DNA of 64,000 bases from Mycetohabitans endofungorum (GTDB lineage Bacteria; Pseudomonadota; Gammaproteobacteria; Burkholderiales; Burkholderiaceae). Each line of letters opens with the position of its first letter. The stretch's first letter is position 1. Positions 13,286 through 35,798 of this stretch are shown one piece after another. Below the pieces are notes generated by a model. That model had not been told where the DNA came from. It ran no database searches and saw only the letters and a program-made list of their open reading frames with translations. Where the stretch lies: contig NZ_CP132744.1 of assembly GCF_037477895.1 (NCBI RefSeq), positions 2,418,001-2,482,000 of the forward strand, read 5' to 3'. The position numbers were made by a program, and so were the translations under genes.

Positions 13286-16200
13286 TCACCATTGGAATCC
13301 TCCTGACGCAACGGCCCCCAAATAACCGCGACCGTTCGCGTTTGCGGCGAGCTTGAAAACCCAGCGATTATTCGGCGTGACGTGCGATATGCCAAGCGCA
13401 GCGCCATACTGGCCGCGGTATGTTGCACCCGCAAACGCCGCCAAACTCTTCCCGGGTAACGTCGGTTGTGGCAATCCCGCCACCGCCATTGCCGCTGCAA
13501 TGCCTGCTGACGCGTCACGATCGACACGCGCAACGGCTTCGTCCAACTGAGCTTTGTTGACTGCATCGGTCGGTTCAGTGCCGCGTGCGACATGCGTGAT
13601 CTTGCGCTCCTGGCCAGGCGTGCCGACTGATACGCGAGTTTCGTCGACGCTAATACCGAGTTGCTCGGTCATGACCGACGGCAACTCTGCCGCGATCGCC
13701 TCGCGCAACCACCCATGAAGCACGTCTTGTTCGGGGGCGGCGTCACGTGACGTAGCGGCTGCCGTACTTGGGCTGGGCCGTGTCAAGGACGTCATTTCTG
13801 TTGGCTCAGAGTTTGGAGGTTGATCGGCCTGCACACTATTCGAAACACTTAAGGAACTGCTGGCGACCGGTTCAGGGATATTCTCGCCTACTTGAGACTG
13901 CTTTTCATTATCCGTCTTCGCCATTACAGCGGCTTGACTGACAGAAACCGGATCTGCACCGGCATCGCTCATCGTTGACGTGCTGCTTCGGCGCGAGGCC
14001 GGGGGTGCTGCCGACATTATGGCGCTCGCATCATGGCCAGCTGGCTGCGCCTGCTGCAGCGACTCTGCCCCGTCAGATCCGCCCCTATTGCCTGGTGCAA
14101 CGTCTTGCACCTTGTCAGCTGCTGTCAAAGCAGGGGACAAACTGGCCTCCAGAATCTGAAGTTGCATGTGGGTCTCGTCAGCGGACTGTGTTAGCTTACT
14201 GGCGACACGGGCACTGGCATCGCTCATCGTTGACATGCTGCTTCGGCGCGAGGCCGGGTGTGCCGATGTTGTGGCGCTCGCATCTTGGCCGGCTGGCTGC
14301 GCCTGCTGCAGCAACTCTGCCGGGCCAAATCCGCCCCTGTTGCCTGGTGCAACGTCTTGCACTTTGTCAGCTGCTGTCAAAGCAGGGGACAAACTAGCCT
14401 CCAGAGTCTGGAGTTGAGTGTGAGTCTCTTCAGCGAACTGTATTGGCTTACTGTCGACACGCGTACCGGCATCGCTCATCGTTGACGCACTGCTTCGAGG
14501 CGAAGCCGGGCGTTCCGCCAGCACCTGCCCAACTTCCATCTCCCTTGACGGGGCTGGGCCGCTTTGCCATATACCGCCCTCCAAGCCTGCTGCATCCAGA
14601 CCGTCCGATCTGCGTCGGTCTTCACTGCTGGATCGTAACCGCTTCGCCACCTGGGGCTGCTGATGCAGCAACACTGCCGATTTGGATCTTCCCCTGTTGC
14701 CCGGTGCAACGTCTCGCACCTTCTCAGCCACTGTCTGCTGCGCGGCAAGGGACGAGCTGGTCTCCGGGGTCTGGACCAAGGGCTGAGTGCGGGACTCGTC
14801 AGCGGACTGTGTTGACCTACTGCCGATACTGGCACCGGCATCGCTCATCGTTGACGTGCTGCTTCGGCGCGAGGCCGGGTGTGCCGATGTTGTGGCGCTC
14901 GCATCTTGGCCGGCTGGCTGCGCCTGCTGCAGCAACTCTGCCGGGCCAAATCCGCCCCTGTTGCCTGGTGCAACGTCTTGCACTTTGTCAGCTGCTGTCA
15001 AAGCAGGGGACAAACTAGCCTCCAGAGTCTGGAGTTGAGTGTGAGTCTCTTCAGCGAACTGTATTGGCTTACTGTCGACACGCGTACCGGCATCGCTCAT
15101 CGTTGACGCACTGCTTCGAGGCGAAGCCGGGCGTTCCGCCAGCACCTGCCCAACTTCCATCTCCCTTGACGGGGCTGGGCCGCTTTGCCATATACCGCCC
15201 TCCAAGCCTGCTGCATCCAGACCGTCCGATCTGCGTCGGTCTTCACTGCTGGATCGTAACCGCTTCGCCACCTGGGGCTGCTGATGCAGCAACACTGCCG
15301 ATTTGGATCTTCCCCTGTTGCCCGGTGCAACGTCTCGCACCTTCTCAGCCACTGTCTGCTGCGCGGCAAGGGACGAGCTGGTCTCCGGGGTCTGGACCAA
15401 GGGCTGAGTGCGGGACTCGTCAGCGGACTGTGTTGACTTACTGTCGACACGGGCACCGGCATCACTCATCGTTGACGCGCTGCTTCGAGGCAAGGCCGGG
15501 TGTTCCGCCAGCACCTGCCCAACCTCCATCTCCCTTGACGGGGCTGGGCCGCTTTGCCATATACCGTCCTCCAAGCCTGCTGCATCCAGGCCGTCCGATC
15601 TGCGTCGGTCTTCACTGCTGGATCGTAACCGCTTCGCCACCTGGGGCTGCTGATGCAGCAACACTGCCGATTTGGATCTTCCCCTGTTGCCCGGTGCAAC
15701 GTCTCGCACCTTCTCAGCCACTGTCTGCTGCGCGGCAAAGGACGAACTGGTCTCCGGGGTCTGGACCAAGGGCTGAGTGCGGGACTCGTCAGCGGACTGT
15801 GTTGACTTACTGTCGACACGGGCACCGGCATCACTCATCGTTGACGCGCTGCTTCGAGGCAAGGCCGGGTGTTCCGCCAGCACCTGCCCAACCTCCATCT
15901 CCCTTGACGGGGCTGGGCCGCTTTGCCATATACCGTCCTCCAAGCCTGCTGCATCCAGGCCGCCCGATCTGCGTCGGTCTTCACTGCTGGATCGTAACCG
16001 CTTCGCCACCTGAGGCTGCTGATGCAACAACACTGCCGATTTGGATCTTCCCCTGCTGCCCAGCGCAGCATCTCGCACCTTTTCAGCCGCTGTCTGCTGC
16101 ACGGCAAGGGACGAACTGGTCTCCGGGGTCTGGACCAAGGGCTGAGTGCGGGACTCGTCAGCGGACTGTGTTGACCTACTGTCGATACTGGCACCGGCAT

Positions 16201-19200
16201 CGTTCATCGTTGACATGCTGCTTCGGCGCGAGGCCGAGTGTGCCAACGTTGTGACACTTGCCACCGGCTCGGCTGGCTGCGCCTGCTGCGGCAACTCTGT
16301 CGAGTTGGATCCGCCCCTGTTGCCTGGTGCAACGTCTTGCACTTTGTCAGCTGCTGTCAAAGCAGGGGACAAACTGACCTCCAGAGTCTGGAGTTGAGTG
16401 TGGGTCTCTTCAGCGGACTGTGTTGGCTTACTGCCGACACGCGTACCGGCATCGCTCATCGTTGACGCACTGCTTCGAGGCGAAGCCAGGCGTTCCGCCA
16501 GCACCTGCCCAACTTCTATCTCCCTTGACGGGGCTGGGCCGCTTTGCCATATACCGCCCTCCAAGCCTGCTGCATCCAGGCCGTCCGATCTGCGTCGGTC
16601 TTCACTGCTGGATCGTAACCGCTTCGCCACCTGGGGCTGCTGATGCAGCAACACTGCCGATTTGGATCTTCCCCTGTTGCCCGGTGCAACGTCTCGCACC
16701 TTCTCAGCCACTGTCTGCTGCGCGGCAAAGGACGAACTGGTCTCCGGGGTCTGGACCAAGGGCTGAGTGCGGGACTCGTCAGCGGACTGTGTTGACCTAC
16801 TGCCGATACTGGCACCGGCATCGCTCATCGTTGACGCGCTGCTTCGGTGCGAGGCCGAGTGTGCCAACATTGTGGCACTTACCCCCGTCTCGGTTGGCTG
16901 CGCCTGCTGCGGCAACTCTGCCGAATCAGATACGCCCCTGTTATCTGGTGCAACGCCTTGCACCTTGTCAGCTGCTGTCAAGGCAGGGGATAAACTGGCC
17001 TTTGGGCTCTGCGTTTTTGCCCGCTCAGAGTTTGGATATTGATCGGCCTGCACACTATTTAAAACACTTGAGGAATTGCTGACAACCGGTTCAGGGATGT
17101 TCTCGCCTACTTGGGACCGCTTTTCATTATCCGTCTTCGCCATTACAGCGGCTTGACTGACAGAAACCGGATCTGCACCGGCATCGCTCATCGTTGACGT
17201 GCTGCTTCGAGACAAGGCTGGCTGTTCCGCCGGCACCTGCCTAACGCCCATCTCCCTTGACAGGGCTAGGCCGCTTTGCCATCCATCGTCATCCCTGTCC
17301 ACAATATACGGTTTCGTAAGCTCATCATACGGGGCCAACGTCCCCTGTCCTTTGCCTCCATTCTCAAAGGCGGAACTATTCTTTCCGAGAATTGGAGTAT
17401 GCGTATTGCCACTTGCATCATGCAACACAGCAACCTTGTTATCTACGACGCTAACGTCTATGCCGGAAACAGTGATCGGCGGCACATCGGTAAACGACGA
17501 TTGATGCCAGGCCAATTCGTGCGCCCCTGCCTGTTGCACGCCATCCGGATTCCCGTCGTCAAACGTGTCCACAGGAACGAACAGCGGCGTATCAGCTTGC
17601 AAACGGCGTTGTTCCAACTTGGGCGCTAATACTGGTAGCGACCGAGACCGCTGGCGTACCCGGTTAGCTCCTTGCATGCTAGGTAACGGCGCATGACTGT
17701 CGTCGGCATGGTCCTTTCCCGTATGCGATGGGTGCAGCCCTCGCGCGTCGATTTGATTAGCTGCGTCCTTCTGCAGGCCACTGAGATTTACATTGTCATT
17801 TTGTAGGTCTATGGCCGATAGCGGTTCATTTGTCGGTCGCTTCCTTTTCACCAAACGGCCTGCCTCCCTTGGCGAAGACTCACTGGGCAAACTTATTGGG
17901 ACCGACTGAGACCTCTCGCGCCGTCGTTTTTCTCTTTGTACGCCAACATCCGTTGATGTTCTAGCCGTCACGTTCAGTCGCTGTTTCCACTCCCATCCCG
18001 GAGTCAGCTTATCTTGCGTATCCGAACCGAGCGTGGACAGTTTCATCTCCCTTGAAGGAGCTGGGCCGCTTTGCCATCCATCGTCATCCCTGTCCACAAT
18101 ATACGGTTTCGTAAGCTTATCATACGGGGCCAACGTCCCCTGTCCTTTGCCTCCATTCTCAAAGGCGGAACTATTCTTTCCGAGAATTGGAGTATGCGTA
18201 TCGCCACTTGCATCATGCAACACAGCAACCTTGTTATCTACGACGCTAACGTCTATGCCGGAAACAGTGATCGGCGGCACATCGGTAAACGACGATTGAT
18301 GCCAGGCCAATTCGTGCGTCCCTATCTGTTGCACGCTATCCGGATTTCCGTCGTCAGACGTATGCACAGGAATGAACAGCGGCGTATCAGCTTGCAAACG
18401 GCGTTGTTCCAACCCGGGCGCTAATACTGGTAGCGACCGAGACCGCTGGCGTACCCGGTTAGCTCCTTGCATGCTAGGTAACGGCGCATGACTGTCGTCG
18501 GCATGGTCCTTTCCCGTATGTGATGGGTGCAGCCCTCGCGCGTCGATTTGATTAGCTGCGTCCTTCTGCGGGCCGCTGGGCATTCCACTGCCCTTTTGTG
18601 AGTCTATGACCGATAGCAACTCATTTGCCGGTCGCTTCCTTTTCACTAAACGGTCTGCCTCCCTTGGCGAAGACTCACTGGGCAAACTTATTGGGACCGA
18701 CTGAGACCTCTTGCGCCGCCGTTTTTCTCTTCGTACGCCAACATCCGTTGGTGTTCCAGCCGTCACGTCCAATCGCTGTTTCCACTCCCGTCCCGGAGTC
18801 AGCTTATCTTGCGTATCCGAACCGAGCGTGGACGGCTTTACATCCCAACGCGACTCTTTTTTCCGTACCTTCGGCTGGCTCGCCTCCTCTCCGTACGATG
18901 GCGCATCGTCCATCGACATAGCTTGCATATCGGATGGCTTCTTATCCCATGCCGCTTCGGCAATCGGCATGTCTTGCATACCCGACACGGGCGTGGACCT
19001 CAACATCTTTTCAGCCTTCTGCTCCGGCGTCACATCCCATCGCGTTACCCGTGGCTTCGGCTGGCTCGACCCCTCACCATGCGATGACGCGTCGTCCATC
19101 GACATAGCTTGCATCATAGCTTGCATGTCGGACGGCTTCTTATCCCATGCCGCTTCGGCAATCGGCATGTCTTGCATACCCGACACGGGCGTGGACCTCA

Positions 19201-20734
19201 ACATCTTTTCAGCCTTTTGCTCCGGCGTCACATCCCATCGCGTTACCCGTGGCTCCGGCTGGCTCGACCCCTCACCATGCGATGACGCGTCGTCCATCGA
19301 CATAGCTTGAGCTTGCCTCATAGCTTGCATATCGGACGGCTTCTTATCCCAGCGCGACTCTTTCCGAACCTTTGGCTGGCTCGCCTCCTCTCCGTACGAT
19401 GACGCATCGTCCATCGACATAGCTTGCATCATAGCTTGCATGTCGGACGGCTTCTTATCCCATGCCGCTTCGGCAATCGGCATGTCTTGCATACCCGACA
19501 CGGGCGCGGACCTCAACATCTTTTCAGCCTTTTGCTCCGGCGTCACATCCCATCGCGTTACCCGTGGCTCCGGCTGGCTCGACCCCTCACCATGCGATGA
19601 CGCGTCGTCCATCGACATAGCTTGAGCTTGCCTCATAGCCTGCATATCGGACGGCTTCTTATCCCAGCGCGACTCTTTCCGAACCTTTGGCTGGCTCGCC
19701 TCCTCTCCGTACGATGACGCATCGTCCATCGACATAGCTTGCATCATAGCTTGCATGTCGGACGGCTTCTTATCCCATGCCGCTTCGGCAATCGGCATGT
19801 CTTGCATACCCGACACGGGCGTGGACCTCAACATCTTTTCAGCCTTCTGCTCCGGCGTCACATCCCATCGCGTTACCCGTGGCTCCGGCTGGCTCGACCC
19901 CTCACCATGCGATGACGCGTCGTCCATCGACATAGCTTGAGCTTGCCTCATAGCCTGCATATCGGACGGCTTCTTATCCCAGCGTGACTCTTTCCGAACC
20001 TTTGGCTGGCTCGCCTCCTCTCCGTACGATGACGCATCGTCCATCGACATAGCTTGCATCATAGCTTGCATGTCGGACGGCTTCTTATCCCATGCCGCTT
20101 CGGCAATCGGCATGTCTTGCATACCCGACACGGGCGTGGACCTCAACATCTTTTCAGCCTTTTGCTCCGGCGTCACATCCCATCGCGTTACCCGTGGCTC
20201 CGGCTGGCTCGACCCCTCACCATGCGATGACGCGTCGTCCATCGACATAGCTTGAACTTGCCTCATAGCTTGCATATCGGACGGCTTCTTATCCCAGCGC
20301 GACTCTTTCCGAACCTTTGGCTGGCTCGCTCCCTCTCCGTACGATGACGCATCGTCCATCGACATAGCTTGCATCATAGCTTGCATGTCGGACGGCTTCT
20401 TATCCCATGCCGCTTCGGCAATCAGCGTGTCTTGCATACCCGACACGGGCGTGGACCTCAACATCTTTTCAGCCTTCTGCTCCGGCGTCACATCCCATCG
20501 CGTTACCCGTGGCTTCGGCTGGCTCGACCCCTCACCATGCGATGACGCGTCGTCCATCGGTGTATCTTCCGTATCGGACTCGACTATGGTTGACTTCGCG
20601 TCGTCGGAAAACAGCAATGCAATAACGACCCCGAGCACACACAACTTCCTTGTTAAAGCAAACCTGAAGTAATTGGGGCGACGAGCGCACGGAGCACCAT
20701 ACACTGCTACTGGTGTTGCATTATGAATCCGCAT
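13286..20734 (-). CDS. Giant repeat-built trimeric autotransporter-like surface protein
   Basis: One uninterrupted frame of 2,482 codons. Residues 29-46 form a basic-hydrophobic signal-like segment (RKLCVLGVVIALLF). Residues 60-633 are 105-residue tandem repeats. Then come two copies of a 265-residue unit, then a mosaic of 123- and 84-residue units. The C-terminus is a classic trimeric autotransporter end: neck-like RKITHVARGTEPTDAVNKAQL near residues 2378-2398, followed by a YadA-type membrane anchor of about 83 residues ending in GGFQW. Such anchors insert as a 12-strand trimeric barrel and display the passenger outside the cell. The passenger is unusual: rich in Ser, Asp, Gln, Arg and Lys, apparently disordered, with no YadA head or coiled-coil stalk recognised. 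RWD motifs and Arg/Lys clusters recur. The start at 20734 lacks a clear Shine-Dalgarno sequence, so it rests on the signal segment. Function is unknown; host interaction is an inference. Confidence 0.85.
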   Translation of the reverse strand: MRIHNATPVAVYGAPCARRPNYFRFALTRKLCVLGVVIALLFSDDAKSTIVESDTEDTPMDDASSHGEGSSQPKPRVTRWDVTPEQKAEKMLRSTPVSGMQDTLIAEAAWDKKPSDMQAMMQAMSMDDASSYGEGASQPKVRKESRWDKKPSDMQAMRQVQAMSMDDASSHGEGSSQPEPRVTRWDVTPEQKAEKMLRSTPVSGMQDMPIAEAAWDKKPSDMQAMMQAMSMDDASSYGEEASQPKVRKESRWDKKPSDMQAMRQAQAMSMDDASSHGEGSSQPEPRVTRWDVTPEQKAEKMLRSTPVSGMQDMPIAEAAWDKKPSDMQAMMQAMSMDDASSYGEEASQPKVRKESRWDKKPSDMQAMRQAQAMSMDDASSHGEGSSQPEPRVTRWDVTPEQKAEKMLRSAPVSGMQDMPIAEAAWDKKPSDMQAMMQAMSMDDASSYGEEASQPKVRKESRWDKKPSDMQAMRQAQAMSMDDASSHGEGSSQPEPRVTRWDVTPEQKAEKMLRSTPVSGMQDMPIAEAAWDKKPSDMQAMMQAMSMDDASSHGEGSSQPKPRVTRWDVTPEQKAEKMLRSTPVSGMQDMPIAEAAWDKKPSDMQAMSMDDAPSYGEEASQPKVRKKESRWDVKPSTLGSDTQDKLTPGREWKQRLDVTAGTPTDVGVRREKRRRKRSQSVPISLPSESSPREADRLVKRKRPANELLSVIDSQKGSGMPSGPQKDAANQIDARGLHPSHTGKDHADDSHAPLPSMQGANRVRQRSRSLPVLAPGLEQRRLQADTPLFIPVHTSDDGNPDSVQQIGTHELAWHQSSFTDVPPITVSGIDVSVVDNKVAVLHDASGDTHTPILGKNSSAFENGGKGQGTLAPYDKLTKPYIVDRDDDGWQSGPAPSREMKLSTLGSDTQDKLTPGWEWKQRLNVTARTSTDVGVQREKRRRERSQSVPISLPSESSPREAGRLVKRKRPTNEPLSAIDLQNDNVNLSGLQKDAANQIDARGLHPSHTGKDHADDSHAPLPSMQGANRVRQRSRSLPVLAPKLEQRRLQADTPLFVPVDTFDDGNPDGVQQAGAHELAWHQSSFTDVPPITVSGIDVSVVDNKVAVLHDASGNTHTPILGKNSSAFENGGKGQGTLAPYDELTKPYIVDRDDDGWQSGLALSREMGVRQVPAEQPALSRSSTSTMSDAGADPVSVSQAAVMAKTDNEKRSQVGENIPEPVVSNSSSVLNSVQADQYPNSERAKTQSPKASLSPALTAADKVQGVAPDNRGVSDSAELPQQAQPTETGVSATMLAHSASHRSSASTMSDAGASIGSRSTQSADESRTQPLVQTPETSSSFAAQQTVAEKVRDVAPGNRGRSKSAVLLHQQPQVAKRLRSSSEDRRRSDGLDAAGLEGGIWQSGPAPSREIEVGQVLAERLASPRSSASTMSDAGTRVGSKPTQSAEETHTQLQTLEVSLSPALTAADKVQDVAPGNRGGSNSTELPQQAQPAEPVASVTTLAHSASRRSSMSTMNDAGASIDSRSTQSADESRTQPLVQTPETSSSLAVQQTAAEKVRDAALGSRGRSKSAVLLHQQPQVAKRLRSSSEDRRRSGGLDAAGLEDGIWQSGPAPSREMEVGQVLAEHPALPRSSASTMSDAGARVDSKSTQSADESRTQPLVQTPETSSSFAAQQTVAEKVRDVAPGNRGRSKSAVLLHQQPQVAKRLRSSSEDRRRSDGLDAAGLEDGIWQSGPAPSREMEVGQVLAEHPALPRSSASTMSDAGARVDSKSTQSADESRTQPLVQTPETSSSLAAQQTVAEKVRDVAPGNRGRSKSAVLLHQQPQVAKRLRSSSEDRRRSDGLDAAGLEGGIWQSGPAPSREMEVGQVLAERPASPRSSASTMSDAGTRVDSKPIQFAEETHTQLQTLEASLSPALTAADKVQDVAPGNRGGFGPAELLQQAQPAGQDASATTSAHPASRRSSTSTMSDAGASIGSRSTQSADESRTQPLVQTPETSSSLAAQQTVAEKVRDVAPGNRGRSKSAVLLHQQPQVAKRLRSSSEDRRRSDGLDAAGLEGGIWQSGPAPSREMEVGQVLAERPASPRSSASTMSDAGTRVDSKPIQFAEETHTQLQTLEASLSPALTAADKVQDVAPGNRGGFGPAELLQQAQPAGQDASATTSAHPASRRSSMSTMSDASARVASKLTQSADETHMQLQILEASLSPALTAADKVQDVAPGNRGGSDGAESLQQAQPAGHDASAIMSAAPPASRRSSTSTMSDAGADPVSVSQAAVMAKTDNEKQSQVGENIPEPVASSSLSVSNSVQADQPPNSEPTEMTSLTRPSPSTAAATSRDAAPEQDVLHGWLREAIAAELPSVMTEQLGISVDETRVSVGTPGQERKITHVARGTEPTDAVNKAQLDEAVARVDRDASAGIAAAMAVAGLPQPTLPGKSLAAFAGATYRGQYGAALGISHVTPNNRWVFKLAANANGRGYLGAVASGGFQW
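13967..17181 (-). repeat. Mosaic of 369-bp and 252-bp coding repeats in the adhesin gene
   Basis: Occurrences of the TMSDAG codon block are spaced 369 or 252 bases apart. In the direction of translation, after a first unit of about 362 bases, the order is A-B-A-A-A-B-A-B-B (A = 369, B = 252). A units encode AKRLRSSSEDRRRS and IWQSGPAPSRE; B units encode SLSPALTAADKVQDVAPGNRG. Some neighbouring copies look identical over hundreds of bases, so recent duplication or conversion is likely. Confidence 0.85.
17244..18833 (-). repeat. Two tandem copies of a 795-bp coding unit in the adhesin gene
   Basis: Each copy encodes about 265 residues from STLGSDTQDKLTPG to WQSGPAPSREM. The junction blocks repeat exactly 795 bases apart (18833 and 18038). 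Each copy has RREKRRR or QREKRRR followed by K/E-RSQSVPISLPS, VKRKRP and RVRQRSRSLPV, and a more ordered-looking stretch around VPPITVSGIDVSVVDNKVAVLHDASG. Confidence 0.85.
18840..20557 (-). repeat. 315-bp tandem coding repeats (RWD repeats) in the adhesin gene
   Basis: A 105-residue unit made of two related halves is repeated about five times with exact 315-base period (equivalent points at 20385, 20070, 19755 and 19440), then shorter partial units. One half carries TRWDVTPEQKAEKML, the other KESRWDKKPSDMQAM. Across the block I count eleven RWD motifs and six AWD motifs. Confidence 0.85.
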
Positions 20735-21515: not shown

Positions 21516-21631
21516 GCCTGACGATTACCTACTTTCACACGGGCAATCCGCACTATCATCGGCGTGGAGTCGTTTCACGGTCCTGTTCGGGATGGGCAGG
21601 GGTGGGACCGACTCGCTATGGTCATCAGGCA
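21516..21631 (-). rRNA. rrf: 5S ribosomal RNA
   Basis: Complement of a canonical beta/gammaproteobacterial 5S: starts TGCCTGATGACCATAGCGAG, contains CCCGAACAGGACCGTGAAAC and ends GTAGGTAATCGTCAGGC. About 116 nt. Ends are placed by the pairing of the terminal helix and may be off by a few bases. Confidence 0.95.
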
Positions 21632-21741
21632 AAAGGGGGAGCTGTCGCGCGGCGGGGCGCGCCAGCGAATCTGGAACAAGAAGCAGCCGGTAGGATTATG
21701 TCGTCGAGGACGGCACAACGGTAAAACGGACCAGTTATAGG

Positions 21742-24623
<2,882 letters not shown>

Positions 24624-25158: not shown

Positions 25159-26690
<1,532 letters not shown>

Positions 26691-26883
26691 CAAACCTGTT
26701 ACTTGTTCGGGCCACAAAGGACCCTGTCGCTCAACTCAAAACGTTGACAGGTTTCGATTCTCTCAAAACCCACCTTCATTTCGCATGAGACTTAATGATT
26801 CTTTCGCATCGCCCCACCCGGCTTTTACCACCCGGGCGCAGCACGCCTGCACCATCAAGTACCCACACTTATCGGCTGTTACT

Positions 26884-33659: not shown

Positions 33660-33697
33660 GGCCTGAGCCGATGGCGGCCACGCGCAACACGGCCGCT

Positions 33698-33802
33698 CAA
33701 CTGTTGAACAGCAGCGGCCACATCCGGCCGCCCAACTGTTGAGCAGCAGCAGCCACATCCAGCCACTCAACTATTGGGCAGCAGCAGCCACATCCGGCCG
33801 CC
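33698..33802 (-). repeat. 35-bp tandem repeat, three units, covering the mltA stop codon
   Basis: CAACTGTTGA-type blocks start at 33698, 33733 and 33768, an exact 35-base period. The unit at 33768 encodes the last residues of MltA and its TGA (GGRMWLLLPNS-stop); the other two lie beyond the stop, between mltA and paaK. Duplication of the 3' end of mltA is the simplest explanation. Confidence 0.8.
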
Positions 33803-35005
33803 CTGCTTCATCCGGCCCGCCAGGTCGCCCGCGTCATCACCTAGTCCCCAAAAGTAGTCGGCCCGCACGCCGCCTTTGATCGCGCTGCCCACGTCCTGCG
33901 CGAACACCAGCCGGTTCATCGGCTGATTCGACAATGGCCGGGTGGTCTGCAGGAATACCGGCGTGCCGAGCGGGATCGACGTCGGGTCAACCGCGATCGA
34001 GCGTTCGGGCGTGAGCGGCACCCCCAACGCACCGACCGGCCCGTCGGCTCCGCCGCTGGGCACGCCTTCGCTGGATGGCACTTCCTTGAAGAACACGAAG
34101 CGCGGATTCACATCCAGCAGAGCATCGACGCGCAACCGGTTCGCCCGGGCCCATGCCTTAATTCCCTGCATCGTCGCCTGCGCCGGTGAAAGCTCGCCAC
34201 GATCGATCAGCCAACGGCCGATCGAACGATACGGCTGGTTGTTGGTGCCACTGTAACCGACCCGCATCACCGTGCCGTCGTCGAGCAATACCCGGCCGGA
34301 GCCTTGCACCTGCAGAAAAAACGCCTCGATCGGATCGTCCACGTAGACAAGCTCGTTGCCGGCCAGCATGCCGGAGCGTATCAGCTGTGCACGCGGCGGC
34401 AACACCGCGTCCGGGCGGGCTGCCCTCGGCCAGCGATACAATGGGTACAGGTACGGCGCACGCCGGTACCGAGACCCATGCAACAACGGCTCGTAGTAGC
34501 CGGTGACGAGACCGTCGAGCGTGCCGTCGCTATTAGCCAGCACAAACGGCGTGAAGTACGTCTCAAAAAACGTACGCGCGGCGGCCACGTCAAGATCATC
34601 CAGTTGCTGCGCAGCAACACACGCACGCCGCCAATTCGCTAGCGTGTTCATGCGTGCACAGTTCTGCCGCAGCGCGCCGGTAGTTCCGATCAGGCTGTCC
34701 TCCTGCCAACCGGGCACCTGCTGCCAGCTGACCGGCGTGAGCCGCGCACTGATCAGCGCCTGCTGGCTTGGCGTGGCAACGACCGGCGGCACGTGCATCA
34801 CCGGCCGCACCGCACCGCTGCCACCGCATGACGCAAGCATCGCCGCTGCGACGATCGTCGCGATCAGTGTCGCGGCGCGGCCCCAGCGCCGCACACCGGC
34901 TGCATGCCGGTCCCTTGCGGCCGCCCGCCTCGGCCCGCTGCCATGCGCGCCACCGTTACCATACACGCAACCGTTAAAATGCTCGCTCGTTTCCCAAACC
35001 GTCAT
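33767..35005 (-). CDS. mltA: Membrane-bound lytic murein transglycosylase A (MltA), lipoprotein
   Basis: MltA cleaves peptidoglycan glycosidic bonds with 1,6-anhydro product formation in the periplasm. Visible motifs: GYYEPLLHGSR, QVQGSGRV, VGYSGTNNQPYRSIG, NPRFVFF and the C-terminal 3D domain with DPTSIPLGTPVFL and AQDVGSAIKG-VRADYFWG (catalytic Asp). A lipobox (MLASC) follows a hydrophobic stretch. With the ATG at 35005 the signal region is long (about 60 residues); the in-frame GTG at 34894 gives a textbook signal MRRWGRAATLIATIVAAAMLASC-type start, so the true start may be there. The open frame further upstream has no family similarity. Confidence 0.88.
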   Translation of the reverse strand: MTVWETSEHFNGCVYGNGGAHGSGPRRAAARDRHAAGVRRWGRAATLIATIVAAAMLASCGGSGAVRPVMHVPPVVATPSQQALISARLTPVSWQQVPGWQEDSLIGTTGALRQNCARMNTLANWRRACVAAQQLDDLDVAAARTFFETYFTPFVLANSDGTLDGLVTGYYEPLLHGSRYRRAPYLYPLYRWPRAARPDAVLPPRAQLIRSGMLAGNELVYVDDPIEAFFLQVQGSGRVLLDDGTVMRVGYSGTNNQPYRSIGRWLIDRGELSPAQATMQGIKAWARANRLRVDALLDVNPRFVFFKEVPSSEGVPSGGADGPVGALGVPLTPERSIAVDPTSIPLGTPVFLQTTRPLSNQPMNRLVFAQDVGSAIKGGVRADYFWGLGDDAGDLAGRMKQGGRMWLLLPNS

Positions 35006-35589: not shown

Positions 35590-35719
35590 CCTGGATTCCG
35601 ATAAAGGTCGCGCAATACGGGCGCACGCTCACCCATGGCGCGGGCATGCAGATCCCTGCGCATCGCATTTTCGTTGATGCGCTTGCGTGTCGCAACCTGC
35701 AATGCGATGTGGCTGATAC

Positions 35720-35798
35720 GACGGGCTGACCCGACGTGGCTGGTCTGACGTGGCTAATCCGACGTGGTTGACGTGACGTAGCTAGCGTGACGCGATCC
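35720..35798. repeat. 14-bp degenerate tandem repeat between apaG and rpe
   Basis: Successive blocks beginning GACGTGG or GACGTAG start at 35733, 35747, 35761 and 35775, with degenerate copies on both sides (from 35720 and to about 35798). The region separates the divergent apaG and rpe genes and should hold both promoters. Confidence 0.7.

Follow-up and report, generated by a model that had tools for sequence, protein, structure and literature searches.

The window analysed here is a stretch of 64,000 nucleotides from Mycetohabitans endofungorum (contig NZ_CP132744.1, positions 2,418,001 to 2,482,000), which carries on its minus strand an open reading frame (ORF) of 2,482 residues at 13286–20734, beginning with ATG. 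By domain content, the product of this gene is a type Vc (YadA-class) autotransporter. Its passenger is built from repeats, and the outermost of these contain a short Trp-Asp motif that resembles the UHM ligand motifs (ULMs) of eukaryotic splicing factors. The gene and its parts are arranged as follows, with the basis of each assignment in brackets.

13286–20734, minus strand: the whole gene, 2,482 residues (ORF from ATG).
20591–20734, minus strand: residues 1–48, an N-terminal extension with a signal-peptide-like hydrophobic stretch, RKLCVLGVVIALLF (hydropathy, by eye).
18815–20590, minus strand: the family A array, residues 49–640, at the distal end of the passenger, with 17 Trp-Asp units (repeats, PF08920 and PDB profile matches).
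20480–20521, minus strand: the first ULM-like motif, at W80, KPRVTRWDVTP (unit listing).
20279–20320, minus strand: a ULM-like motif of the second type, at W147, KVRKESRWDKKP; the same type recurs at W252, W357 and W462.
18830–18871, minus strand: the last ULM-like motif, at W630, KVRKKESRWDVKP.
17225–18814, minus strand: family B, residues 641–1170, two copies (repeat comparison).
13715–17224, minus strand: family C, residues 1171–2340, five full copies of GRSKSAVLLHQQPQVAKRLRSSSEDRRR (repeat comparison).
13502–13603, minus strand: the YadA neck/stalk PF05662, residues 2378–2411 (Pfam).
13289–13471, minus strand: the YadA anchor PF03895, residues 2422–2482, with terminal GGFQW (Pfam and alignment to the Hia structure).

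An earlier note, made by reading the letters, had placed a YadA-type anchor and neck at the C-terminus, and the profile search it proposed bears this out. In Pfam, YadA_anchor (PF03895) matches residues 2422–2482 (E 1.4e-12; 47.9 bits against a cut-off of 22.7) and YadA_stalk (PF05662) matches residues 2378–2411 (E 3.4e-8; 34.2 bits against a cut-off of 28.4). The best sequence relative of the C-terminus in the PDB is the solved Hia anchor 2gr7 (E 1.1e-16), while among NCBIfam models the EmaA anchor scored far under its cut-off and the remaining matches were weak and unrelated. The last 113 residues share 106, 112 and 112 identities with the orthologues in three other genomes of the genus, designated G005, G002 and G007, respectively (94–99%). 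At the other end of the chain, the hydropathy profile shows a putative signal peptide, with basic residues followed by a hydrophobic stretch at about residues 28–42 and a hydropathy maximum within residues 31–41; 41 of the first 60 residues are identical in the complete G005 orthologue (L026). The protein is predicted to form trimers and to be displayed at the cell surface.

A classical adhesin fibre, consisting of a head and a long stalk, was rejected for the remainder of the protein. No YadA head family in Pfam matched the full protein at E ≤ 1, the stalk is confined to residues 2378–2411, and none of the 28-mers in passenger residues 49–2360 passed a simple heptad measure devised for this analysis (0%, against 13.8% in residues 50–280 of the L028 paralogue). 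Thus, the protein has the anchor and neck in common with the Hia, YadA and EmaA adhesins, but neither a head nor a long coiled-coil stalk was found in it, as had been read from the letters. The three repeat families recognized in that first reading were likewise recovered. Family A has a period of 105 residues and 4.8 copies (nucleotides 19055–20559 in the DNA repeat analysis), family B consists of two copies offset by 265 residues (anchor points 665 and 930), and family C shows periods of 123 residues (3.3 copies) and 84 residues (2.2 copies).

Ser makes up 13.8%, Ala 11.5% and Pro 7.4% of residues 49–2360, Cys is absent, and the longest Pro-free run is 44 residues. Of two disorder scales applied, charge–hydropathy and TOP-IDP, the latter is positive in every passenger window. 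From this composition and from simple, indirect sequence measures, we infer a Pro-rich passenger that is flexible or disordered. The disorder proposed in the earlier note agrees with the composition and with charge–hydropathy in 80-residue windows over residues 81–640, which fall on the disordered side; elsewhere charge–hydropathy is mixed. As a whole, the proposal has composition as its basis. Its claim that a flexible passenger on a YadA anchor would be a new architecture is too strong, because BimA, a type Vc autotransporter that faces the host cytosol, already uses short actin-binding motifs on flexible linkers, as described in the available text of PMC9569871 and PMC6555100. The observation itself is therefore confirmed and its interpretation partly supported. 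What it missed is the most informative point, the ULM-like motif in the family A repeats.

The Trp-Asp units of the array lie 30–38 residues apart and comprise 11 RWD and 6 AWD units; the unit consensus is [S/T]-R-W-D-[V/K]-[K/T]-P, with basic residues preceding it. The AWD units, at W110, W215, W320, W425, W530 and W596 (window 18932–20431), read AEAAWDKKP and have kept Trp, Asp and Pro and lost Arg. This form is confined to the window genome among the four genomes that bear the array; in the other three all 26 Trp-Asp units are RWD. Fourteen of these are in the complete G005 orthologue, and eight and four are in two orthologues cut by contig ends, numbers that are lower bounds because the contigs of these two draft genomes begin within the array (L025 position 1 and L027 position 1). 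Over 17 distinct RWD units, the only invariant columns are R, W, D and the P at W+4. Basic residues occupy position −4 in 33 of the 36 RWD units with flanking sequence, position −5 in 28 and position −3 in 2. A relaxed version, [KR]x0-3[ST]RW[DN], was sought in seven sequences (139,559 residues), and no further frame of 80 residues or longer contained it.

Two measurements address whether the motif is maintained. The first is the codon usage of its Arg, which is retained in 36/36 flanked RWD units via three different codons; this count leaves out the 6 AWD units and a single RWD unit of the 37, whose flank is cut off at a contig edge. The second is the ratio of nonsynonymous to synonymous differences (pN/pS), counted for distinct RWD units only and for between-genome pairs only. 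It is 0.36 in the core (−2 to +4) versus 0.86 in the linkers when compared ungapped, and 0.37 versus 0.80 after alignment. Owing to the low ratio of the core relative to the linkers and to an Arg held constant through three codons, selection seems to retain the seven-residue motif while the spacers vary. These results also bear on a largely neutral expansion, in which recombination would have driven the repeats and the passenger would be a flexible spacer only. Long near-identical DNA repeats and copy numbers that differ between genomes would be expected under such an expansion. Nevertheless, we consider it very improbable, given the constrained core, B and C blocks that are invariant across genomes, and a frame free of internal stop codons in 4/4 large genomes of the genus, over the available sequence.

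The likeness of the array motif to known ULMs was examined with profiles. Profile A1 holds 17 of the 29 distinct units, with 4 AWD-type and 8 near-duplicate RWD units excluded; profiles A4, A9 and A10 hold 13, 8 and 8 of its 17 units. Against 177,635 distinct PDB sequences, A1 gave seven matches at E ≤ 10, of which three are sequences of one picornavirus polymerase and four are spliceosomal: yeast Hsh155 (residues 94–104), Schizosaccharomyces pombe U2AF59 twice (RKRSLWDIKPPGY) and human SF3B1 (residues 334–343). A 17-position core profile had a single match, Hsh155 96–104, and a half-profile made from G005 and G007 had six, three of them splicing proteins, with U2AF59 in first and second place together with Hsh155. 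The U2AF59 segment RKRSLWDIKPPGY and the G005 segment ARRASRWDVKPPGM can be read in parallel. As controls against the PDB, the reversed profile gave no match and the column-permuted profile gave three, all unrelated; the family B profile matched one unrelated sequence, and the family C profile matched two (both ribosomal bL20). A phmmer search of the PDB with the single sequence of residues 49–672 found no match to known ULMs or to anything else. It is hard to obtain by chance that several distinct ULM proteins should be matched at the motif itself.

The Hsh155 match spans R100/W101, the ULM residues examined by mutation, changes of which abolish the two-hybrid interaction with the Cus2 UHM, and ULM5 of human SF3B1, a protein with at least five ULMs, includes R337, E340, T341 and P342, according to the available sections of PMC6633205. 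In ULM–UHM binding, the Trp enters a pocket to which an Arg-X-Phe loop contributes and the preceding Arg meets an acidic helix, and small-molecule inhibitors of the interaction stop early spliceosome assembly in extracts (PMC7648758, PMC6633205, in the parts available). A dye-tagged cyclic KSRWDE peptide is reported to bind the SPF45 UHM at 1.46 µM (PMC7648758, same parts). The ULMs of the SF3B1/Hsh155 N-terminus, U2AF59/U2AF65 and SF1 are similar to the array in their R-W-D core, in part in their upstream basic residues, with position −3 as the weak point, and, in several members, in T/K-P downstream. They are described as sitting in unstructured regions (PMC2791216, in part). The difference is in the carriers: these ULMs belong to eukaryotic nuclear proteins, whereas the units described here, spaced by 30–38 residues, belong to a YadA-anchored protein of a bacterium. 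Among Pfam families, SF3b1 (PF08920) was the sole family at E ≤ 10 on one 80-residue copy (E 0.028; 15.3 bits, below the cut-off of 25.1). It scored 32.6 bits on the window array (residues 49–672) and 26.1 bits on the G002 array, both raised by repetition, and 13.8 bits on the full-length protein, which is below the cut-off.

We propose, tentatively and at slightly less than an even chance, that this type Vc autotransporter of an endofungal symbiont carries arrays of ULM mimics on the cell surface and captures splicing factors of the host with them. Among mechanisms, this is the best supported by the comparisons above, and it depends on a short motif. The long flexible passenger would then be a series of short linear motifs in eukaryotic style and not a rigid adhesin fibre, and its outermost segment would present 11 RWD-type ULM mimics per chain (about 33 in a trimer). 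Within the cytoplasm of the fungus, these motifs would occupy the Trp pocket of host UHM domains (U2AF65/U2AF35 and the SPF45/PUF60/Tat-SF1 class); the host-cytoplasm lifestyle guessed from the letters fits, Mycetohabitans being fungal endosymbionts. A distal array on a trimer could bind UHM proteins, or complexes with several UHMs, with high avidity, and such valency might allow the bacterium to sequester, concentrate or redirect UHM proteins, or to hold complexes at its surface. Newly made or shuttling factors, or release of the passenger, could provide the contact, and in a released passenger the basic clusters in B and C might permit entry into nuclei. In a bolder form, about which we are more doubtful, the high-valency array (dozens of ULMs per trimer) would capture factors of early spliceosome assembly, with sites resembling nuclear localization signals (NLSs) and 14-3-3 sites behind it, and could, as a spliceosome mimic at the level of protein, allow the endosymbiont to steer host splicing, either while the passenger stays in the cytoplasm or once it has been released and reached the nucleus.

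Several observations weigh against the proposal of ULM mimicry. With respect to the units themselves, 6/17 in the window are AWD, and one unit each in G005 (SRLDVKP, L026 residue 732) and G007 (SRLGMKS, L027 residue 162) has no Trp. At −3, the window's RWD units carry Glu or Val instead of the basic residue present in the solved ULMs matched here, and a strict ULM pattern, in the form we take it to have, counts no motif in the window, G002 or G007 and two in G005. With respect to conservation, pS is also lower in the core (0.27 versus 0.49 in the linkers, aligned), repeats homogenise, and the pairs used for pN/pS are not independent. With respect to the searches, the SF3B1 likeness was first spotted by eye in the translation and the searches came afterwards. 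The E-values of the splicing matches, 0.23–7.7, are individually weak, so that only the pattern of matches carries weight, and the half-profile from the window and G002 finds no splicing protein in the PDB (0/4 matches). In Pfam, none of the 17 single units matches any family, the G005 array matches none, and the G007 array reaches only 12.6 bits with PF08920 (E 0.19). The whole-array Pfam score was set aside as sole proof, because repetition also lifts unrelated families, TraC and the vitellogenin shell, over their cut-offs on the arrays; membership of PF08920 is not claimed for the array. Finally, UHM proteins are mainly nuclear, whereas an anchored passenger is not.

Many of these points would also suit an ordinary type Vc surface protein, whose low-complexity and fast-evolving repeats serve adhesion, spacing or biofilm formation and resemble ULMs by chance convergence in a repeat that contains Arg, Lys, Trp and Asp. 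The anchor and neck are unremarkable, the genome encodes two more YadA-anchored paralogues, linkers and copy number vary, Trp-less and AWD units occur, individual E-values are weak and one half-profile fails. In addition, RBRH_03838 and RBRH_03272 of M. rhizoxinica are listed as potential autotransporters, possibly for attachment, in the part of PMC3102044 that treats them. Such an origin would leave it to coincidence that the invariant columns are the ULM-defining residues, that the core has the lower pN/pS and that reversed or permuted profiles yield no splicing factor. We judge it somewhat unlikely.

Families B and C supply motifs of another kind. Each B copy has a KRRRKR or KRRRER cluster and a VKRKRP cluster, all basic, as well as two RSxSxP sequences (676, 764, 941 and 1029 in the two copies), and KRxR shows no variation in the alignments of either family (six sequences each). 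In the first B unit of the window, two RSxSxP were observed versus 0.015 expected after shuffling (p 0.00005, for a motif chosen post hoc); orthologues have one or two per B unit, and in one G005 B copy RSRSLS replaces RSRSLP. We take RSxSxP to be the 14-3-3 mode I motif. By analogy, and chosen post hoc, the basic clusters and RSxSxP sites would suit nuclear import and 14-3-3 binding. Two observations concern the descent of these modules. By eye, B and C both repeat an arrangement of RSxS, then hydrophobic residues, then a KRxR cluster (for example at 676, 764 and 1371), hinting that the two modules share an ancestor. At residues 654 and 919, the B units of the window also open with QRLDVT or QRLNVT, which resemble the array motif without its Trp and may be decayed array units.

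These motifs raise the alternative of a host-directed hub of linear motifs whose main targets are not UHM domains, with B and C capturing 14-3-3 proteins through RSxSxP or importin through the NLS-like KRxR. The enrichment of RSxSxP over shuffling, its recurrence in orthologues and the invariance of KRxR agree with this, and Ataxin-1 offers a precedent in which a ULM, an NLS and a 14-3-3 site overlap in one stretch (PMC2791216, in the available text). Against this, the motifs are short and were selected after the fact, one G005 copy has RSRSLS, 14-3-3 binding would require phosphorylation by the host, and the RWD array would be left unexplained. As an account of the main targets we find it improbable.

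In its way of working, a ULM-mimic autotransporter would most resemble BimA, whose available descriptions (PMC9569871, PMC6555100) likewise combine a YadA-class anchor with eukaryotic-like short motifs on flexible linkers in the host cytosol and state that its function needs oligomerisation. The difference is that BimA acts on actin, through WH2 and proline-rich motifs, whereas the motif described here resembles spliceosomal ULMs. An actin assembly factor in the manner of BimA would thus share the anchor class and have a Burkholderia precedent in the host cytosol in the same two sources. However, Pfam gave no WH2 family for the whole protein or for pieces of it, for which the actin-nucleator reading was rejected, and the conserved residues are RWD..P and not an actin-binding helix with LKKT; we regard such a function as extremely improbable.

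Bacterial proteins directed at host splicing factors are known: Listeria InlP binds the splicing factor RBM5 (PMC9763339) and a Ralstonia effector targets SR34a (PMC11859261). Neither a YadA anchor nor a ULM array is mentioned for them in the available parts of these papers. The TAL effectors of Mycetohabitans are also repeat proteins of the same symbionts directed at host nuclear processes, and one reportedly enters the yeast nucleus, as far as the accessible portion of PMC10746252 describes them; they differ in being DNA binders delivered by the type III secretion system. Among the literature matches listed in searches aimed at a bacterial ULM mimic, there was none. If the motifs do bind UHM domains, a bacterium that controls the reproduction of its fungus would be mimicking, with an array on its surface, the contacts that hold the early spliceosome together. 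This would broaden the known roles of type V secretion passengers and link an endosymbiont to host splicing. Burkholderia small molecules are described as acting on the spliceosome, FR901464 by binding SF3B1 and spliceostatin C (from B. rinojensis) as a spliceosome inhibitor; thus, if ULM mimicry holds, SF3b function could be reached by two unrelated routes in related bacteria.

The gene is real, since it has a complete orthologue of 1,876 residues in G005 and two others cut by contig ends in G002 and G007. Among eight genomes of the genus, the four large ones (3.3–3.8 Mb) each have three YadA anchors and this gene, and the four small ones (1.1–1.2 Mb) have neither anchors nor the gene. Record NZ_PRDW01000008.1 of M. 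endofungorum HKI456 carries it, a scan of named genomes with six short peptide patterns, sensitive to close relatives only, found a single locus in M. endofungorum, and plasmid records gave no match. Profile A1 found the genome of the window and one weak single match in each of two samples, 399 genomes of the Burkholderiales and 398 of the Pseudomonadota, from which the other three array-bearing genomes were evidently absent. The weak matches are G278 (E 0.0087) and G1123 (E 0.00995); the former was set aside as an Arg-rich frame of 205 residues overlapped by a 938-residue frame on the opposite strand. Within the bacterial family, the family B profile matched 4/388 genomes, all four of them the array-bearing Mycetohabitans, and the family C profile matched 5/398, these four and weakly G559 (E 9.6e-4). 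Among the genomes searched, clear passenger homologues are therefore found only in four Mycetohabitans genomes. A related species, M. (Burkholderia) rhizoxinica, is an intracellular symbiont of Rhizopus microsporus for which two YadA-domain proteins are listed (PMC3102044, in part).

The gene lies downstream of an rRNA operon (5S at 21516–21629, 23S at 21739–24623, tRNA-Ala, tRNA-Ile and 16S at 25159–26691), and past its 3′ end are an AMP-binding (acyl-CoA synthetase-like) gene, a porin gene and a COQ7-like gene. This gene order is common to the window and G005, as far as they were compared. A promoter scan of the upstream region gave three weak matches, one of them on the strand of the gene. 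The genome that holds the window (G000) consists of two contigs, amounts to 3.55 Mb and encodes three YadA-anchored proteins. The second has 576 residues (L028:6711–8441, minus strand; G000 C1 at about 1,010,700; first found as L001), with a Pro-poor, coiled-coil-like passenger and a similar C-terminal region, and makes a helpful contrast. The third (L029:6346–7737, minus strand; G000 C2 at about 686,300) has 463 residues from a TTG within an open frame of 487 residues; its passenger is short and it adjoins a frame that appears AraC-like by eye. The third anchor of G005 (G005:C1:720695–720877) is within an open frame of just 127 residues, and this homologue may be truncated. Unconnected short tandem repeats occur elsewhere in the window, at 33690–33803 (35 bp, 3.3 copies) and at 35701–35784 (units of 14/28 bp).

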